This document shows, piece after piece, positions 52,348 through 59,126 of a DNA stretch of 64,000 bases (its first letter is position 1; every line of letters begins with the position of its first letter). A program made the translations under genes and the position numbers. The notes under the pieces are model-generated. The model had not been told where the DNA came from, made no database searches, and saw only the letters and a list, made by a program, of their open reading frames with translations. The stretch spans positions 1 through 64,000 of the forward strand of contig CAMVCL010000003.1 of NCBI GenBank assembly GCA_947165975.1. The letters are read 5' to 3'. Origin of the DNA: an uncultured Candidatus Saccharibacteria bacterium. GTDB lineage: Bacteria; Patescibacteriota; Saccharimonadia; Saccharimonadales; Saccharimonadaceae.

Positions 52348-52366
52348 TGGCGGAAGCGAGAGGATT
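52348..52366. repeat. att direct repeat, distal copy
   Basis: TGGCGGAAGCGAGAGGATT. Confidence 0.88.
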
Positions 52367-52779
52367 AGTGATTCTTTCATGCATCCTTCAAGACAACTAA
52401 TCAAGAACAAGTTCTTGCTTATCTGTCTTGGCGGACAGGTGTGTCACAAATTGGAACCTTCTCAAGGCGGAACTTATTCGTTGGGATAAACTCTTAACTC
52501 CTATCAGAGAAGAAAAAGAGTTATACCAATTAACTTAGTATATTAGAACTAATATAGGTAATATGGCTTGGTTCTAAACTTGTGAATACCGATGGTAAAA
52601 TCGTCTATTTGCCAAAGGCTATGTGCTACCAGAAGCGAAGAAACGACAACTCAATATAAAGCACCTTAACAGAGTAAATATCAAAGACCTAATAAAATAT
52701 CACTTTTGAACGAAAAATGTCGCAAAATGGTTAAAAATTGACAGATATTAGATTTTTAGTGATACTTTATCAGTGCCAA

Positions 52780-52980
52780 AACGCTTAAGTCCAACAGGGG
52801 TAAAGTTCCTATAAAGTTCCCAAATAAACGATAAATGCCGTATAAGTGTCGTATAAGTGTCGTTTTTTTGACATTTGATAAACGCTTAAAGGTTATGTTC
52901 AACGGGGGTAAATGTGCTATAAATGTCCAGAATAGCGACTATAACGCTTAAGTCCAACAGGGGTAAAGTGTGTATAAAGT
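52780..52980. repeat. Iteron-like repeats upstream of the tyrosine recombinase
   Basis: AACGCTTAAGTCCAACAGGGGTAAAGT at 52780-52806 and 52943-52969; variant at 52881-52914; tandem GTATAAGTGTC x2 at 52840-52861. Confidence 0.8.
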
Positions 52981-53064
52981 TGTGGAATGGGGGGTATCAT
53001 TTGACAATAGAAATAGTAATGCTACGATACGCTCGTCATATAAAAAATCAAGGAAGGACTACCA

Positions 53065-53967
53065 ATGATAAACGAGATAGCAATAATCAGCCAAGGAGAA
53101 CTTGGCTACAACGACAACATATTTAATTCCCTAGACATCAGCAACAATACCAAATTAGAGTATTTAAGCCGCCTTCCTAGGTTCTTTCAGTTTGCATCCA
53201 CTCAAACCATCAACCGAGATTTACTATTGCGATATAAGCAATATTTAAGAGATGATAATACACTTGGTATTAGTAGCAAAAACAAGTATTTGACCACTGC
53301 GAGAATAGCCCTGCGTGAATTGTATCGGCAAGGATTAACGCCCATAGATTTATCAGTCGGAGTTAGTTCATTCCAGCAAAACAGTAAGCACAAAGTGAAT
53401 GGCTTAAATGAAGAAGAAGTGTCGAGAATATGCGACTATCTGCGAGAGCAAGACAAGTCCTTCAAGAATATCAGACTGCGAGCGATTATATCGCTTTTAT
53501 TTTTTCAAGGACTACGGCAAGTCGAAATCTGCCGACTAAACTTTGATGATATCGACCTAGCAAATGGAGTTATAAAAGTGCTTGGAAAAGGACGGGAAGA
53601 CAAGGAATACATACATTTACATCCAGCAAGTCAAAAAGCCTTAAAACGCTATTTAAGAGCCTCTCACGCAAAATATGGACCAACCTTCTACTCGCTCAAT
53701 GGCAAAAACAAAGGCAACCGACTAACTACTAGGGGTTTAAGGCAAATAGTCCAAAACTTATTTAGCGATCTAGGCATAGAAAAGACCGTTCACGGAAGCC
53801 GACACTTTTTCACTACTGAACTTATCAAGTATTACAAATCAGACCTAACAACAGTCGCTAGATTTACTCGTCATAATTCACTGAATATGCTTCAGATTTA
53901 CAATGACGAAATCGCAAGCGAAAGCGACCCAGAACAATTAGCAAAGGCATTTCAGTATGACTTGTAA
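53065..53967 (+). CDS. Tyrosine recombinase/integrase
   Basis: GLRQVEICRLNFDDID, KVLGKGRED, HGSRHFFTTEL, TRHNSLNMLQIYNDE; TTGACA-N16-TACGAT promoter upstream. Confidence 0.95.
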   Translation: MINEIAIISQGELGYNDNIFNSLDISNNTKLEYLSRLPRFFQFASTQTINRDLLLRYKQYLRDDNTLGISSKNKYLTTARIALRELYRQGLTPIDLSVGVSSFQQNSKHKVNGLNEEEVSRICDYLREQDKSFKNIRLRAIISLLFFQGLRQVEICRLNFDDIDLANGVIKVLGKGREDKEYIHLHPASQKALKRYLRASHAKYGPTFYSLNGKNKGNRLTTRGLRQIVQNLFSDLGIEKTVHGSRHFFTTELIKYYKSDLTTVARFTRHNSLNMLQIYNDEIASESDPEQLAKAFQYDL

Positions 53968-54361
53968 AGAGCAAGAATTCAAACTGCGAGTTGTGGGTGG
54001 GCTGGACTTTTATGAAGTATCGTCTGCATTCATCAAGGAATTGGAAGCCCGCAATACATATAAGGCTTGCTTATGGGCATTTGTATTGCTTCAGAGCGGC
54101 TACTATAAGCATATATGGAAACACTTGGCTATCTATGCGAGCCAATTAGAGAGCAATCAGATAATCGAAATATCGGCACTACGAAATTGCTTCGACCTTA
54201 ACACGACAGCCAAAGACCGCAAAATGGAAGAAGGCTTTTGTTATATCTGTCGAGCAATCATCAGTCTTTGCAATGATAAGGAAAATACAGCAGAGATGAC
54301 GGATAAAATAATCAAAAAATACTGCTCTGGTTACTGGCCAGAACTGCTACCAGCATCTTAA
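53957..54361 (+). CDS. Hypothetical protein in element
   Basis: ORF translationally coupled (ATGA-type overlap) to the integrase. Confidence 0.6.
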   Translation: MTCKEQEFKLRVVGGLDFYEVSSAFIKELEARNTYKACLWAFVLLQSGYYKHIWKHLAIYASQLESNQIIEISALRNCFDLNTTAKDRKMEEGFCYICRAIISLCNDKENTAEMTDKIIKKYCSGYWPELLPAS

Positions 54362-54392
54362 TTTTAAGTACATTTTATGTTATAATTAAAAT

Positions 54393-54531
54393 GTTCGAAG
54401 TCCCAATCTATAGTAAGTCTATCCTGACTGAATAGGTAAAGTATTGAACCCTTCGTGGAGCACTCGCTCCAGTCGGCTCAATCGCTTACTGTAGAAACAG
54501 GAACTTCGAACACTCCTAGCGAGTGTTCCAC
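54393..54531 (+). ncRNA. Putative structured RNA / cis-regulatory RNA
   Basis: TATAAT 54381-54386 then 6 nt to GTTCGAAGT (54393-54401), which pairs with ACTTCGAAC (54503-54511); internal nested stems; alternative 14-bp pairing 54455-54468 / 54518-54531. Confidence 0.6.
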
Positions 54532-54581
54532 TTAGTTTTAGGGGCACTTCTCGGATTTAGTTAATTAACAAAGGAGTGCCA

Positions 54582-55484
54582 ATGGAAACAAATGATAATA
54601 TCAAATCTGCGAGTAAAGCCAAAAAAGGCTTACCGGACTTCTTCAAGCAACACAAGAAAAGTTGCTTAGTCGTGCTTGGTATTATCTTGGGGGTAATCAT
54701 TATTGGTGCTATTAGTGTTGCAATCAGGAACAATATCGAAGAAAACCGAGATTATTATATTTCGGTAGATAAAGAATATGCTTTTGATTGCAATGCAAGT
54801 TATGACGAGAAGACTAAAGAAATATCTTGCGAAGAACAAACAATAACTGGCAAGTTTTCAGAATACCCCACAGTAAAAATTGATGGCTATATTACGGTTC
54901 ATACTGACGGCGACAAGTTCAGCATTAAGCCTTACAACGACATATACAAGAGCCGTTACGAAACCGATGACTTTGATATTGAAAAATTAGAAAAAGGTTT
55001 ATCAACCGACTACATTATTTATCTTGAGAATACGCAACTAAACAAGCGCTTTGCAGAAACAACAATCTCTGTTCGTTATAAATTATCTGAAGCCGACAAG
55101 GAACTCATCACAAAGAAACATAATGACTGGAAAGAGTGGAAAGAAAGCGAAGACGTAAAGGCAAAAGCCGAGAGTAAAACCAAAGAGCAGGAGCAAAAAC
55201 AAGAAACAAAGTCCGAAACCAGCACGACAACCAGTGAAGAACGCTCTTATCTAGACGCACTCCGTAAATGCACAGTAATGGAAGCCGCCGATATCTACAC
55301 CACTGGTATTGGCAAAAAGAGCGACAATGTTTTCAATGACGGACGAGATACTTGCAATACTTGGTATTCGCAGTGGGGTGAAGATGATTTCTTTGAGGCT
55401 GTCTATATTGACTGGGAGAACCGCAAAACTGAAGAAATCGACGGGCAACCGCTAACATACTATCTAACAATTCTAGGTTGGTAA
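54582..55484 (+). CDS. Single-pass membrane hypothetical protein
   Basis: ORF with TM CLVVLGIILGVIIIGAISVAI; start ATG 54582 after SD aaaggag. Confidence 0.7.
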   Translation: METNDNIKSASKAKKGLPDFFKQHKKSCLVVLGIILGVIIIGAISVAIRNNIEENRDYYISVDKEYAFDCNASYDEKTKEISCEEQTITGKFSEYPTVKIDGYITVHTDGDKFSIKPYNDIYKSRYETDDFDIEKLEKGLSTDYIIYLENTQLNKRFAETTISVRYKLSEADKELITKKHNDWKEWKESEDVKAKAESKTKEQEQKQETKSETSTTTSEERSYLDALRKCTVMEAADIYTTGIGKKSDNVFNDGRDTCNTWYSQWGEDDFFEAVYIDWENRKTEEIDGQPLTYYLTILGW

Positions 55485-55493
55485 GGAGTTTAT

Positions 55494-56117
55494 ATGGGAT
55501 TATTTGATGGCATTAAACAGATGAAGAAGAATAATGATGATTTCATTAAATCATTTACCAAACCATTTGAAGAAAAGAAAGCGGCAACCGAAGCCCACAA
55601 ACAGGCTGTTGCTAATGGTGATATCTCGCCAATCACTCCGTCTGTTAAATTGAAGCAAGGCGAGAAAGCCTATGTAGAGTTTCCTGCAAAGCGCAAAGCC
55701 ATAGTAACCACGACCATTCAACGAACCGTCGAAAAAACTAAGAAGAAGGGCGGAATAACTAGAGCAGTGGTTGGCGGAGCGCTACTCGGACCAGTTGGAG
55801 CGGTAGTCGGAGCAACCACCGCCAAGAGTAAAGGTAATTCAGTTGGCTATACTGAAGATATAGAAAGCCTAAACGATATAGACCAAGGGATCTTGGTGCT
55901 TACTGACCAGCGTATGTTATTTGTTGGGCAAGAGATTGTTAGTATTCCGTATGATGAACTGATAGGTGTTAAGTTTGAAAACACAATTACTGGTGCGGAA
56001 ATCAGCGCCAAATATGCAGGTATGCTAAAGGGCGAGCAATATTTCATCTCTGGCAAAGAAGCGAAGTTGTCGAAAATGTATTATCAGGCCATTACGGAGA
56101 AGTTGTTGAAAGCCTAA
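55494..56117 (+). CDS. PH-like domain hypothetical protein
   Basis: GGALLGPVGAVVGATTAKS; DQGILVLTDQRMLFVGQEIVSIPYDELIGVKFE. Confidence 0.65.
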   Translation: MGLFDGIKQMKKNNDDFIKSFTKPFEEKKAATEAHKQAVANGDISPITPSVKLKQGEKAYVEFPAKRKAIVTTTIQRTVEKTKKKGGITRAVVGGALLGPVGAVVGATTAKSKGNSVGYTEDIESLNDIDQGILVLTDQRMLFVGQEIVSIPYDELIGVKFENTITGAEISAKYAGMLKGEQYFISGKEAKLSKMYYQAITEKLLKA

Positions 56118-56232
56118 AATCGGCTCATTATGCCGATAATTTCAATTACAAGAATTATCTATTTAGTGCCCTTCCGTATCTGTAAAACAGTTTAAAATAT
56201 GTTATAATAATTCGAGAAGGACTAAGTTCATA

Positions 56233-57081
56233 ATGCTCGAAGACAGCGTAGGCAAATCAACCCACAAAGTTTGGCTAAAATATCCAGACAAGGAATACGA
56301 GAAGCCATACTTATTCCCGATTGGCGGACTTCGAGGCGACATTATAACTTTAGCAAAATCTGACAATGGTGAAACTCAAATACAGAAAAAGTATAGAATA
56401 CCAGATAACCTAGAGAAAAACCTTTATCTAGAAACCACACTAGAAGACATCAAAAATCTGAACAAGACAAAGTGCATAAGAATAAATACACTGGAAGAAA
56501 AAGACGGTTTCTTGATAGTCGATATTATTCTGAATGAACCTCGTTGCTCTTATTATGTATGGGGCAAATCTGATTTGATTAACAATGAACGCCAACGAGA
56601 AAATCTTAATAGGTTTCGGCAATATCCAGTCATCGATAAGAATAAGACATATCAATGCCGTATTGTTATGTTGGGCAAGCAAGTTTATTTGAAATGGGAT
56701 AATAGCCTGCATTGGCTTTATGGTTTTAAGAATAATGATAAGTCTTCAAGATACAATTTAACAAAAATACTACTCGGCGCAACAGATATAACGCACCAAG
56801 CAAAGGAACTCGAGAGTAAAGGGATCAAGTTCCCACCAAAAAGATTAAAAGAGATAATGACCAAAGCGTTTTTGAGGGATACATTGAGAAAGCGATTTAT
56901 GCTTTCAACTGGGCCAGATAATATTGGCATTAGAAGTAGAGTAGATATTATTGGCGAAGACTTAATAAAGATTATCAGGGAGCAACTCCAATACTATGTT
57001 AAAGAAACTTCTCGTCATAGGCTTCAAAAAATGGAACACGACATAGAAAAGGCGAAGAAGAATTTACTCCGCAAAATATAA
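56233..57081 (+). CDS. Hypothetical protein in element
   Basis: 282-codon ORF preceded by ttataat and an SD-like aagga. Confidence 0.6.
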   Translation: MLEDSVGKSTHKVWLKYPDKEYEKPYLFPIGGLRGDIITLAKSDNGETQIQKKYRIPDNLEKNLYLETTLEDIKNLNKTKCIRINTLEEKDGFLIVDIILNEPRCSYYVWGKSDLINNERQRENLNRFRQYPVIDKNKTYQCRIVMLGKQVYLKWDNSLHWLYGFKNNDKSSRYNLTKILLGATDITHQAKELESKGIKFPPKRLKEIMTKAFLRDTLRKRFMLSTGPDNIGIRSRVDIIGEDLIKIIREQLQYYVKETSRHRLQKMEHDIEKAKKNLLRKI

Positions 57082-57142
57082 TAGTCAACCCATATTTTTA
57101 CTCCGCGAAACTTCTTGAAGTTTATATTTACTCCGCAAAATA
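57063..57142. repeat. Three spaced direct repeats TTTACTCCGC(A/G)AAA
   Basis: 57063-57078, 57097-57111, 57127-57142. Confidence 0.85.
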
Positions 57143-57166
57143 AAAATCACAGTGTAGATTTGCGGT

Positions 57167-57355
57167 ATGAACCCGCAGGAAGAAATAATGACAGTCGCAG
57201 AACTTCGTAAAATCGTTAAAGCCGAGTATTCTTCGACTTTAGTCCTTCCAAGCGATGACGAACTCAAAGATTGCATCAATCTTCTTGCTGGGCTCGCAAC
57301 TTTACAATATAAACTCTCTAAGAGAGAAACCCCCAAAACGAGATACGGCGAGTAG
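57167..57355 (+). CDS. Small hypothetical protein
   Basis: 62-aa ORF; stop overlaps a GGCGAGT...ACTCGCC hairpin followed by TTTCTT. Confidence 0.45.
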   Translation: MNPQEEIMTVAELRKIVKAEYSSTLVLPSDDELKDCINLLAGLATLQYKLSKRETPKTRYGE

Positions 57356-57437
57356 GAGAAGAACCACGAGTTCGAAACTCCACTCGCCTTTCTTGACTTT
57401 TGGTGTTTTTCAAAGAGAATAAAAGAAAGGATACTAT

Positions 57438-59126
57438 ATGACTAAACAGTCAAATATCAAAAAACGCAAAGCAGTTATCTACGCTCGAGTTTCTAGTGAG
57501 CGGCAAGTAGATAATATGAGCCTAGGCGAGCAACAAAGAGTTTGTAAGGCTTATTGCAAACGCTACTTCAAAGATGATGTTTCGGAAGAACGTATCTTTG
57601 TAGAAAAAGGCGAGAGCGCCAAAACCGCCAATCGAACAGAACTTCAAAAAATGCTGAAGTATTGTGCTCAACACAAGAAAGAGATTGGCTATGTGGTTGT
57701 CTACAAAGTCGATAGATTTTCACGCAAAGTAGCAGACTTCGCAGCACTGAAAGCAATCCTTGCAAAAATGGGTATAGCCTTGCGATCCGTAACCGAGCCA
57801 ATCGGAGAAGAAAGCAACACTAGCGTTCTTATGGAAAACATTTTAGCCTGTTTCGCTCAATTTGACAACGATATGAGAGGCGAGCGAGCACAGACTGGAA
57901 TGCGAGCAGTCGCAAATGAAGGTGGCTGGACAATGTGCGCACCAGTAGGTTACATAAACTGGAAGAATGAAGCAAAGAAATCGACCTTAAAGGTAGATGA
58001 AGAAATGCGAAAGCCTATACAAAAGTTCTTTACTAAGTTTGCTACTGGTCTTTATACACAAGAAGAAGCAGTCGAACTAGCAAAGAAATGTGGTATTCGC
58101 AACAAAAAAGGTGAGCCGATGTCTAGAACCGGTATTCATAAAATGTTGAGAGCACCAGTCTATGCTGGGTGGGTTTGCAATAAATCTACTGACGGCAGAA
58201 TGGTAGTAGGGCTTCACGAGGCACTTATAGACAAGAAAGATTGGTACAAGATACAAGATTTACTAGACGGCAGAACCGAAGAAGGACTTCCGACTAGAAG
58301 TAGGTTGCCGAAGTATCATAAGAATAATTCCAAGTTTCCGCTACGCCGTTTTTTCGTATGTAGCATCTGTGGTAAACCGCTAACTGGTAGCACTTCGAAA
58401 GGTCATACAACTTGCGTTTCGTACTACCATTGCCATAGATGCAGTGTAAAGAACTGCGGTCATCGTGTTTCCGTTCAGCAAGAAGAAGCACACAGAAAAT
58501 TCGAGGAGTTGCTGGCTCAAATAGAGCCAGCCCCTTGGGTTCCAGCAGTGTTTAAAGAGATAGTCATTAGACAATGGAATGAAGATTTTAGAAGCGCCAT
58601 TAGAGATGTAGAAAGCATAAATAGTAAAATTTCTGAATTGGAACACAAGAAATGTAATTTAATTGAGAAGTATGCGGACGATAAGATTAGCGAAGAGGAC
58701 TATCGAAATATGATTGCTGGCTACGAGCAAACCAAGCGTAGTTTGGAAGCCGAAAGAGTAAGTCTAGAAGAAAACAAAGTAACTAGAGAAAGCGTAATCG
58801 ACACTGCAATGGAGTTTATAACTGGACTGGTCACTACTTGGCGAAATCTACCCCTGGAAGAAAAGCAAAAGTTCCAAATTGCAATTTTTCCAAAGAAAAT
58901 TACAGTGTTACCAAATGGCGACTTTGGAACCTATGAATTAAGCCCGATTTTTCAAGAAACAACAGAGATAGAACGCACATTAACAAATGATAAAAAAGGC
59001 TCCCCTTCGGGGGATGCCACTATGGCGGAAGCGAGAGGATTCGAACCTCCGAGAGTCTTGCGACCCCACACGATTTCGAGTCGTGCGCCTTCAACCACTC
59101 GGCCACGCTTCCGCCTACAATTCTAG
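57438..59126 (+). CDS. Large serine recombinase; ORF reads through att and antisense to tRNA-Ser
   Basis: AVIYARVSSERQVDNMSLGEQ; YKVDRFSRKVADF; recombinase Zn-ribbon CSICGKPLTG...CHRCSVKNCG. Confidence 0.93.
   Translation: MTKQSNIKKRKAVIYARVSSERQVDNMSLGEQQRVCKAYCKRYFKDDVSEERIFVEKGESAKTANRTELQKMLKYCAQHKKEIGYVVVYKVDRFSRKVADFAALKAILAKMGIALRSVTEPIGEESNTSVLMENILACFAQFDNDMRGERAQTGMRAVANEGGWTMCAPVGYINWKNEAKKSTLKVDEEMRKPIQKFFTKFATGLYTQEEAVELAKKCGIRNKKGEPMSRTGIHKMLRAPVYAGWVCNKSTDGRMVVGLHEALIDKKDWYKIQDLLDGRTEEGLPTRSRLPKYHKNNSKFPLRRFFVCSICGKPLTGSTSKGHTTCVSYYHCHRCSVKNCGHRVSVQQEEAHRKFEELLAQIEPAPWVPAVFKEIVIRQWNEDFRSAIRDVESINSKISELEHKKCNLIEKYADDKISEEDYRNMIAGYEQTKRSLEAERVSLEENKVTRESVIDTAMEFITGLVTTWRNLPLEEKQKFQIAIFPKKITVLPNGDFGTYELSPIFQETTEIERTLTNDKKGSPSGDATMAEARGFEPPRVLRPHTISSRAPSTTRPRFRLQF
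58991..59018 (-). terminator. Terminator immediately 3' of tRNA-Ser(CGA), lying inside the element
   Basis: Minus strand GGCATCCCCCGAAGGGGAGCC-TTTTTTA. Confidence 0.7.
59023..59112 (-). tRNA. tRNA-Ser (anticodon CGA), CCA encoded
   Basis: Reverse complement GGAAGCGTGGCCGAGTGGTTGAAGGCGCACGACTCGAAATCGTG...CGCTTCCGCCA. Confidence 0.95.

Follow-up and report, generated by a model that had tools for sequence, protein, structure and literature searches.

Riboswitches of the fluoride, ZTP and preQ1 types attenuate transcription by means of a pseudoknot that competes with a terminator, and in most riboswitch regulons the controlled genes share a pathway. We describe here a comparable arrangement in an uncultured Candidatus Saccharibacteria bacterium, located in a 64,000-nucleotide stretch of contig CAMVCL010000003.1 that was analyzed as a whole (the window). 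As in these riboswitches, a junction or hairpin domain in the 5' part of the mRNA can form a pseudoknot with its 3' tail, and a terminator-like hairpin shares sequence with that domain. The family described here differs from them in that it has no sequence or covariance match in Rfam and in that its downstream genes have no common pathway. Indeed, an Rfam scan returned no match over the window RNA at E ≤ 5, in line with the original prediction, which had recognized no known RNA family. Neither the window RNA nor 20 homologous loci, which were searched at E ≤ 1, reached the gathering score of any Rfam 15 family.

Three other systems resemble the locus in part. T-box leaders are likewise 5' leaders in which a terminator and an antiterminator compete, but the family here lacks their invariant UGGN antiterminator bulge, segment A varying between copies (GUGGAGCAC, GUGAGACAU, AUAGGGCAC). 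The downstream genes include neither amino-acid genes nor aminoacyl-tRNA synthetase genes, no Rfam T-box match was obtained, and a T-box identity was rejected. Integron attC sites are also imperfect inverted repeats that lie beside a tyrosine recombinase and are followed by exchanged genes. The base of the present repeat, however, reads GTTC...GAAC and not AAC...GTT, the family shows strand-specific G-U pairing and has its own promoter, and neither the R'' RYYYAAC ... R' GTTRRRY boxes nor cassette arrays were found, with one RNA copy per locus; an attC identity was thus discarded. Similarly to the ToxI leaders of type III toxin-antitoxin systems, a promoter, a structured pseudoknotted RNA and a terminator-like end precede a gene. 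Such an identity was excluded by the presence of a single RNA unit without tandem repeats and by the downstream proteins, which fall into 43 unrelated clusters (BLAST) and not into one (ToxN-like) family.

Layout and covariation of the RNA

The elements of the locus are listed in Table 1. The TATAAT hexamer from which a transcription start had been predicted was found to be part of an extended -10 box, which ends six bases upstream of the first P1 base. The 9-bp closing helix (54393-54401/54503-54511) is part of P1, and the nested pairings AGTAAG/CTTACT, CTAT/ATAG, ATTGAaCC/GGcTCAAT and GGAGC/GCTCC were all present as described. The coordinates of a second hairpin overlapping the closing helix (54508-54528) also held, as did those of the complementarity between segments A and C. 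The RNA strand folds with an energy of -59.6 kcal/mol, compared to -39.5 ± 4.1 kcal/mol for dinucleotide shuffles (z = -4.9, 0/200). A leader peptide within the RNA was considered and rejected on inspection: short ATG frames occur in some copies with unconserved start and frame, and none occurs in the window.

Table 1. Features of the RNA locus and its element (positions in the window)
Feature	Position	Strand	Basis or remark
Extended -10 box TGnTATAAT	54378-54386	+	TG at 54378-54379, TATAAT at 54381-54386; predicted +1 at 54393
P1 5' strand GTTCGAAGTCC	54393-54403	+	First base is the predicted transcription start; fold and covariation
P2 5' strand TCTATAGTAAG	54407-54417	+	Two-sided changes in 11/11 pairs
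P2b hairpin CTAT...ATAG	54419-54435	+	Two-sided changes in 6/6 model pairs; 87.5% paired
P3 5' strand ATTGAaCC	54443-54450	+	Two-sided changes in 7/7 pairs
Segment A, within P3 loop	54455-54468	+	Partner is segment C, as pseudoknot or alternative fold
P4 hairpin TGGAGC-ACTC-GCTCCA, inside A	54456-54471	+	Lineage specific; absent from the sequences of distant members
CAGT motif, 3' of A	54470-54473	+	Unpaired and conserved; family alignments
P3 3' strand GGcTCAAT	54475-54482	+	Covariation
P2 3' strand CTTACTGTAGA	54485-54495	+	Covariation
P1 3' strand	54500-54511	+	Final 4 nt (GAAC) common to segment B
Segment B, 5' arm of terminator-like hairpin	54508-54515	+	Covariation; terminator scan
Segment C, 3' partner for both A and B	54518-54531	+	Covariation and permutation test
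U-tract UUAGUUUU, then AGGG	54532-54543	+	Conservation ends here (3' limit)
Segment D, pairs with C or Shine-Dalgarno sequence	54543-54551	+	Window and near-identical copies only
Shine-Dalgarno AGGAG of downstream gene	54572-54576	+	Sequence
Downstream gene, 300-aa protein	54582-55484	+	1 apparent transmembrane segment; no Pfam family
Mobile element that contains the RNA	52348-59041		19-bp direct repeat TGGCGGAAGCGAGAGGATT at both ends, at tRNA-Ser(CGA)

The nested fold (P1 to P4) was strongly supported by homologs. In 48 distinct copies, 95.1% of the alignment cells were standard pairs, 41 of the 46 pairs showed two-sided changes and the covariation score (which ignores phylogeny) was 0.572, compared to 0.226 after shuffling and at most 0.108 with slid partners, all figures that are somewhat inflated because the structure was used in fitting the alignment. 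An independent MAFFT alignment of 15 copies gave 93.6% pairing and two-sided changes in 23/46 pairs. Covariation was strong for P1, P2, P2b and P3; in P1, two-sided changes affected 11 of 12 pairs, and an alignment-free comparison of matched with permuted strands that ignores phylogeny gave z -15.6 (0/20,000). P1 was kept in distant members (z -11.7), from which P4 was missing. G-U pairs are common in the helices when these are read on the + strand.

Spread of the family

About 80 copies of the structured RNA were found in total. A Blast search in the family returned 15 copies beyond doubt, with two in each of several genomes. The covariance model built from these 15 copies (R1) detected the family in 37 of the 174 genomes of the genus, and a second model (R2) found it in 44 of the 375 genomes of the order (Saccharibacteria), spanning 20 genera and five families. 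One match of the order-wide search (L159), which lacked both the A:C pairing and an ORF, was set aside as a false positive. A different class of the phylum contains one probable copy (L161, genome G664), in which P1, A:C and the U-tract are retained together with the -10 box, and a search of 14 genomes around G664 returned no additional copy. L161 lies directly upstream of a serine-recombinase-like ORF. A phage or plasmid origin found no match among 50,697 phage and 72,556 plasmid records; a single IMG/VR pattern match (L093) was taken as chance because it covered only a 26-nt hairpin. We consider it almost certain that these copies form an uncatalogued family of structured, cis-acting leader RNAs.

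Two pairings compete for segment C

Segment C is complementary to two upstream segments. Its pairing with A (54455-54468 with 54518-54531) showed two-sided changes in 11 of 15 pairs, and that with B (54508-54515 with 54521-54528) in 5 of 8. The covariance model contains neither pairing, except for four B:C pairs. In alignment-free comparisons of matched with permuted strands, which ignore phylogeny, A:C gave z -11.6 and B:C z -7.5 (0/20,000 for both). A:C persists (z -9.0) in the distant members, which lack P4; the covariation of B:C is weaker there (z -2.4). Thus, the homologs support both competing pairings as well as the nested fold, and together with the negative Rfam result they bear out the proposal that the RNA is structured, bistable and riboswitch-like and belongs to no known family. 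Mutually exclusive pairings, as expected of the expression platform of a riboswitch or attenuator, are therefore present, since A:C and B:C covary on a common C strand.

The exclusivity of the folds proved narrower than had been proposed. It is strict between A:C and P4, between A:C and B:C, and between B:C and the first four P1 pairs (the GUUC:GAAC end). A:C and P1-P3 are not necessarily exclusive: A lies within the P3 loop, and A:C can thus coexist with P1-P3 as a pseudoknot. When only nested folds were compared, all 40 copies favored the P1 state over the A:C state, with an average difference of 15 kcal/mol. P1-P3 combined with the A:C pseudoknot summed to -64 to -76 kcal/mol, compared to -55 to -70 kcal/mol for the nested fold, and was favorable in 7 of the 8 copies calculated, these energies being simple sums without a loop penalty.

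Promoter and downstream genes

The -10 box was present in 70 of 77 family members and in its full extended form in 60, and it puts the predicted start of the copies at the first P1 base. Downstream ORFs begin at about +150 to +220. Under strict criteria, which required a length of at least 70 aa, a Shine-Dalgarno match and a start between +140 and +225, such an ORF was present at 63 of 73 loci, compared to 14% of random points, which places the RNA in a predicted 5' untranslated region directly ahead of genes, as expected of a riboswitch or attenuator; a conserved structured domain with covariation, also expected of one, was described above. Several of the ten remaining loci had weak Shine-Dalgarno sequences, truncated genes or starts beyond the interval.

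Most downstream proteins belong to no Pfam family. Those recognized include DUF4352 proteins at five loci, a TM2-like 75-aa protein at seven loci (a weak match), DUF4407, HSDR_N (two), PDDEXK_4, EcoRI-type and N6/N4 DNA methylases, a P-type ATPase, an epimerase, YbjQ and PNPOx. With Pfam assignments diverse or absent, no pathway common to the downstream genes was evident, in contrast to the usual riboswitch regulon. Ten downstream proteins were tested with PADLOC: that of L121 matched the candidate-defence family PDC-S26 and that of L039 weakly matched LmuB. In addition, the downstream ORFs of L040, L097, L098, L120, L045, L108 and L110, none with a Pfam family, have a short N-terminal motif in common, which resembles ENPWQKMAEE-PPF or GWENLSEVPF and is possibly a targeting signal.

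The mobile element and exchange of modules

The RNA had been placed inside a mobile element, and this was confirmed by perfect copies of a 19-bp repeat at 52348-52366 and 59023-59041, the second inside the tRNA-Ser(CGA) gene. The repeats are probably the attachment sites of an integrative element of 6.7 kb, which carries a tyrosine recombinase (53065-53967), a serine recombinase (57438-59126) and the RNA-led cargo. The frame of the serine recombinase extends into the tRNA-Ser gene. Upstream of the tyrosine recombinase, at 52780-52981, stand three 39-nt iteron-like direct repeats (AACGCTTAAGTCCAACAGGGGTAAAG...), such as might be seen at a replication or recombinase-binding site. A 134-aa ORF without a Pfam family (53957-54361) overlaps the end of the tyrosine recombinase and is conserved with it in relatives, and is a possible partner of the recombinase.

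The same module of tyrosine recombinase and 134-aa ORF was found without the RNA at two other loci, with HTH/cytosine-methylase-like cargo (L031:6001-9991) and with restriction-modification-like cargo plus a serine recombinase (L033:6001-11107). Thus, the integrase module also occurs independently of the RNA, and cargo is exchanged behind a fixed recombinase module. Exchange is also seen around the RNA copies. L095 and L096 share 99% identity from -966 to +153 and diverge exactly at the 3' end of the RNA, one of them having an extra DUF4352 gene ahead of the common downstream sequence. Between L046 and L104, 99% identity is confined to -46 to +159, with different flanks on both sides, and between L105 and L107 the divergence lies upstream of -12. 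In L107, the RNA and the first part of the gene are kept, and about 1.45 kb of the gene body present in L105 is missing. Homologous recombination between copies would explain these exchanges.

Probable transcription attenuation and its alternatives

The switch-like arrangement common to the family, in which C pairs with either A or B beside a U-tract, points to transcription attenuation. In both the window and one homolog (L142), the hairpin reported by a terminator scan was exactly B:C. The U-tract that follows C is broken (UURGUUUU) in the genus of the window and near-perfect (CCUUUUUAUUU) in distant members, whose 3' end is a hairpin followed by CCUUUUUAUUU, so that B:C there resembles a clean intrinsic terminator. 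Based on the terminator-scan match, the U-tract, the exclusivities and the compatibility of A:C with a pseudoknot, we took B:C as the terminator and A:C as the antiterminator. From this, the RNA is probably best explained as a cis-acting, riboswitch-like transcription attenuator in which A:C and B:C compete.

In the mechanism that we infer, transcription would start at 54393, and the gene at 54582 would have the feature as its 5' leader. The nascent RNA would fold into a junction of P1, P2, P2b and P3, with segment A held in the P3 loop, and segment C would have two possible partners as it emerges. Pairing with B would yield a short G+C-rich hairpin followed by the U-tract, an intrinsic terminator that would turn the gene off; pairing with A would yield a pseudoknot helix of 14 to 15 bp that would block the terminator and turn the gene on. 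Since P1 and B share GAAC, a stable junction would favor A:C and a loosened junction B:C, and a signal (metabolite, ion, protein or temperature) may bias the junction.

The polarity could also be the opposite, because in the genus of the window B:C ends 3 nt from the first UU of the U-tract while A:C abuts the tract. A:C would then be the terminator stem, and the antiterminator would be either P4 with B:C or the folded junction lacking the pseudoknot. The distant members, which pair the first A residues of A:C with the first U residues in the style of an A-tract/U-tract terminator, are consistent with this. On the other hand, A:C would close a loop of about 50 to 60 nt and form slowly, B:C pairs locally and corresponds to the hairpin that the terminator scan reports, and A:C as a nested stem was less stable than the P1 state in every copy compared (40/40, by 15 kcal/mol on average). 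We thus regard the opposite polarity as unlikely.

A compact fold with a conserved promoter and a terminator-like end would also suit a trans-acting small regulatory or protein-binding RNA of mobile elements that has its own terminator, the ORF being read by leak-through. Such an RNA would not be expected to have unrelated same-strand genes starting in a narrow interval behind it, as seen at 63/73 loci, or homology between copies that stops exactly at its 3' end while the following gene changes, and we consider this explanation quite improbable.

The same low probability is given to a translational switch, in which A and B would decide whether C pairs with D and free D would cover the Shine-Dalgarno sequence. 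The original prediction had D (54543-54551) occluding this sequence (54572-54580) ahead of the ATG at 54582, which held for the window and its near-identical copies. In one of these (L034), the Shine-Dalgarno sequence was unpaired with a probability of 0.01, compared to 0.32 with shuffled linkers. Moreover, the minimum-energy fold of the window includes C:D, and the complementarity between linker and Shine-Dalgarno sequence gave z -3.3. C:D is weak, however (z -2.4), and across the family the accessibility of the Shine-Dalgarno sequence did not differ from that with shuffled linkers (Wilcoxon p 0.84), which rules out its sequestration as a general mechanism. The helix covering the Shine-Dalgarno sequence is thus a local addition of this locus and its near-identical copies and not a family property; occlusion may add to attenuation at the window locus alone.

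Lastly, a DNA-level element, that is, a folded attC-like site conserved for recombination that captures the genes behind the RNA, would fit the gene exchange exactly at the 3' end (L095/L096) or at both ends (L046/L104) and the recombinases near 18 of 54 copies (within limited flanks), but is very improbable, given that the G-U pairs of the + strand support conservation at the RNA level, promoter and start-codon spacing are conserved, copies are single without arrays or attC R-box polarity, and the exchange can be put down to homologous recombination between copies.

Discussion

Attenuation through competing A:C and B:C pairings thus remains the preferred reading. Judged from its sequence, the RNA appears built to swap between two shapes and is probably an on/off switch for the genes downstream. 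More broadly, and tentatively, the family could represent an orphan riboswitch class, Saccharibacteria-wide and possibly Patescibacteria-wide, that places unrelated accessory and mobile-element genes under one signal, for example starvation or contact with the host, and is transferred between genes as a ready-made promoter-plus-switch module. If so, the genes under this common signal would include those for membrane proteins, DUF4352 proteins, DNA methylases, nucleases and a recombinase.

To our knowledge, little is known about gene regulation in ultrasmall epibiotic bacteria, and we found no description of an RNA switch in them in the open literature searched. One perspective on the Patescibacteria (PMC11665869) sees promise in riboswitches as tools with which expression could be controlled. 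The family is a native candidate for such use, with its promoter built in. It could also reveal the signal that activates accessory and mobile-element genes in these organisms, and because its covarying pairings share a strand, the switching model can be put to a direct test.
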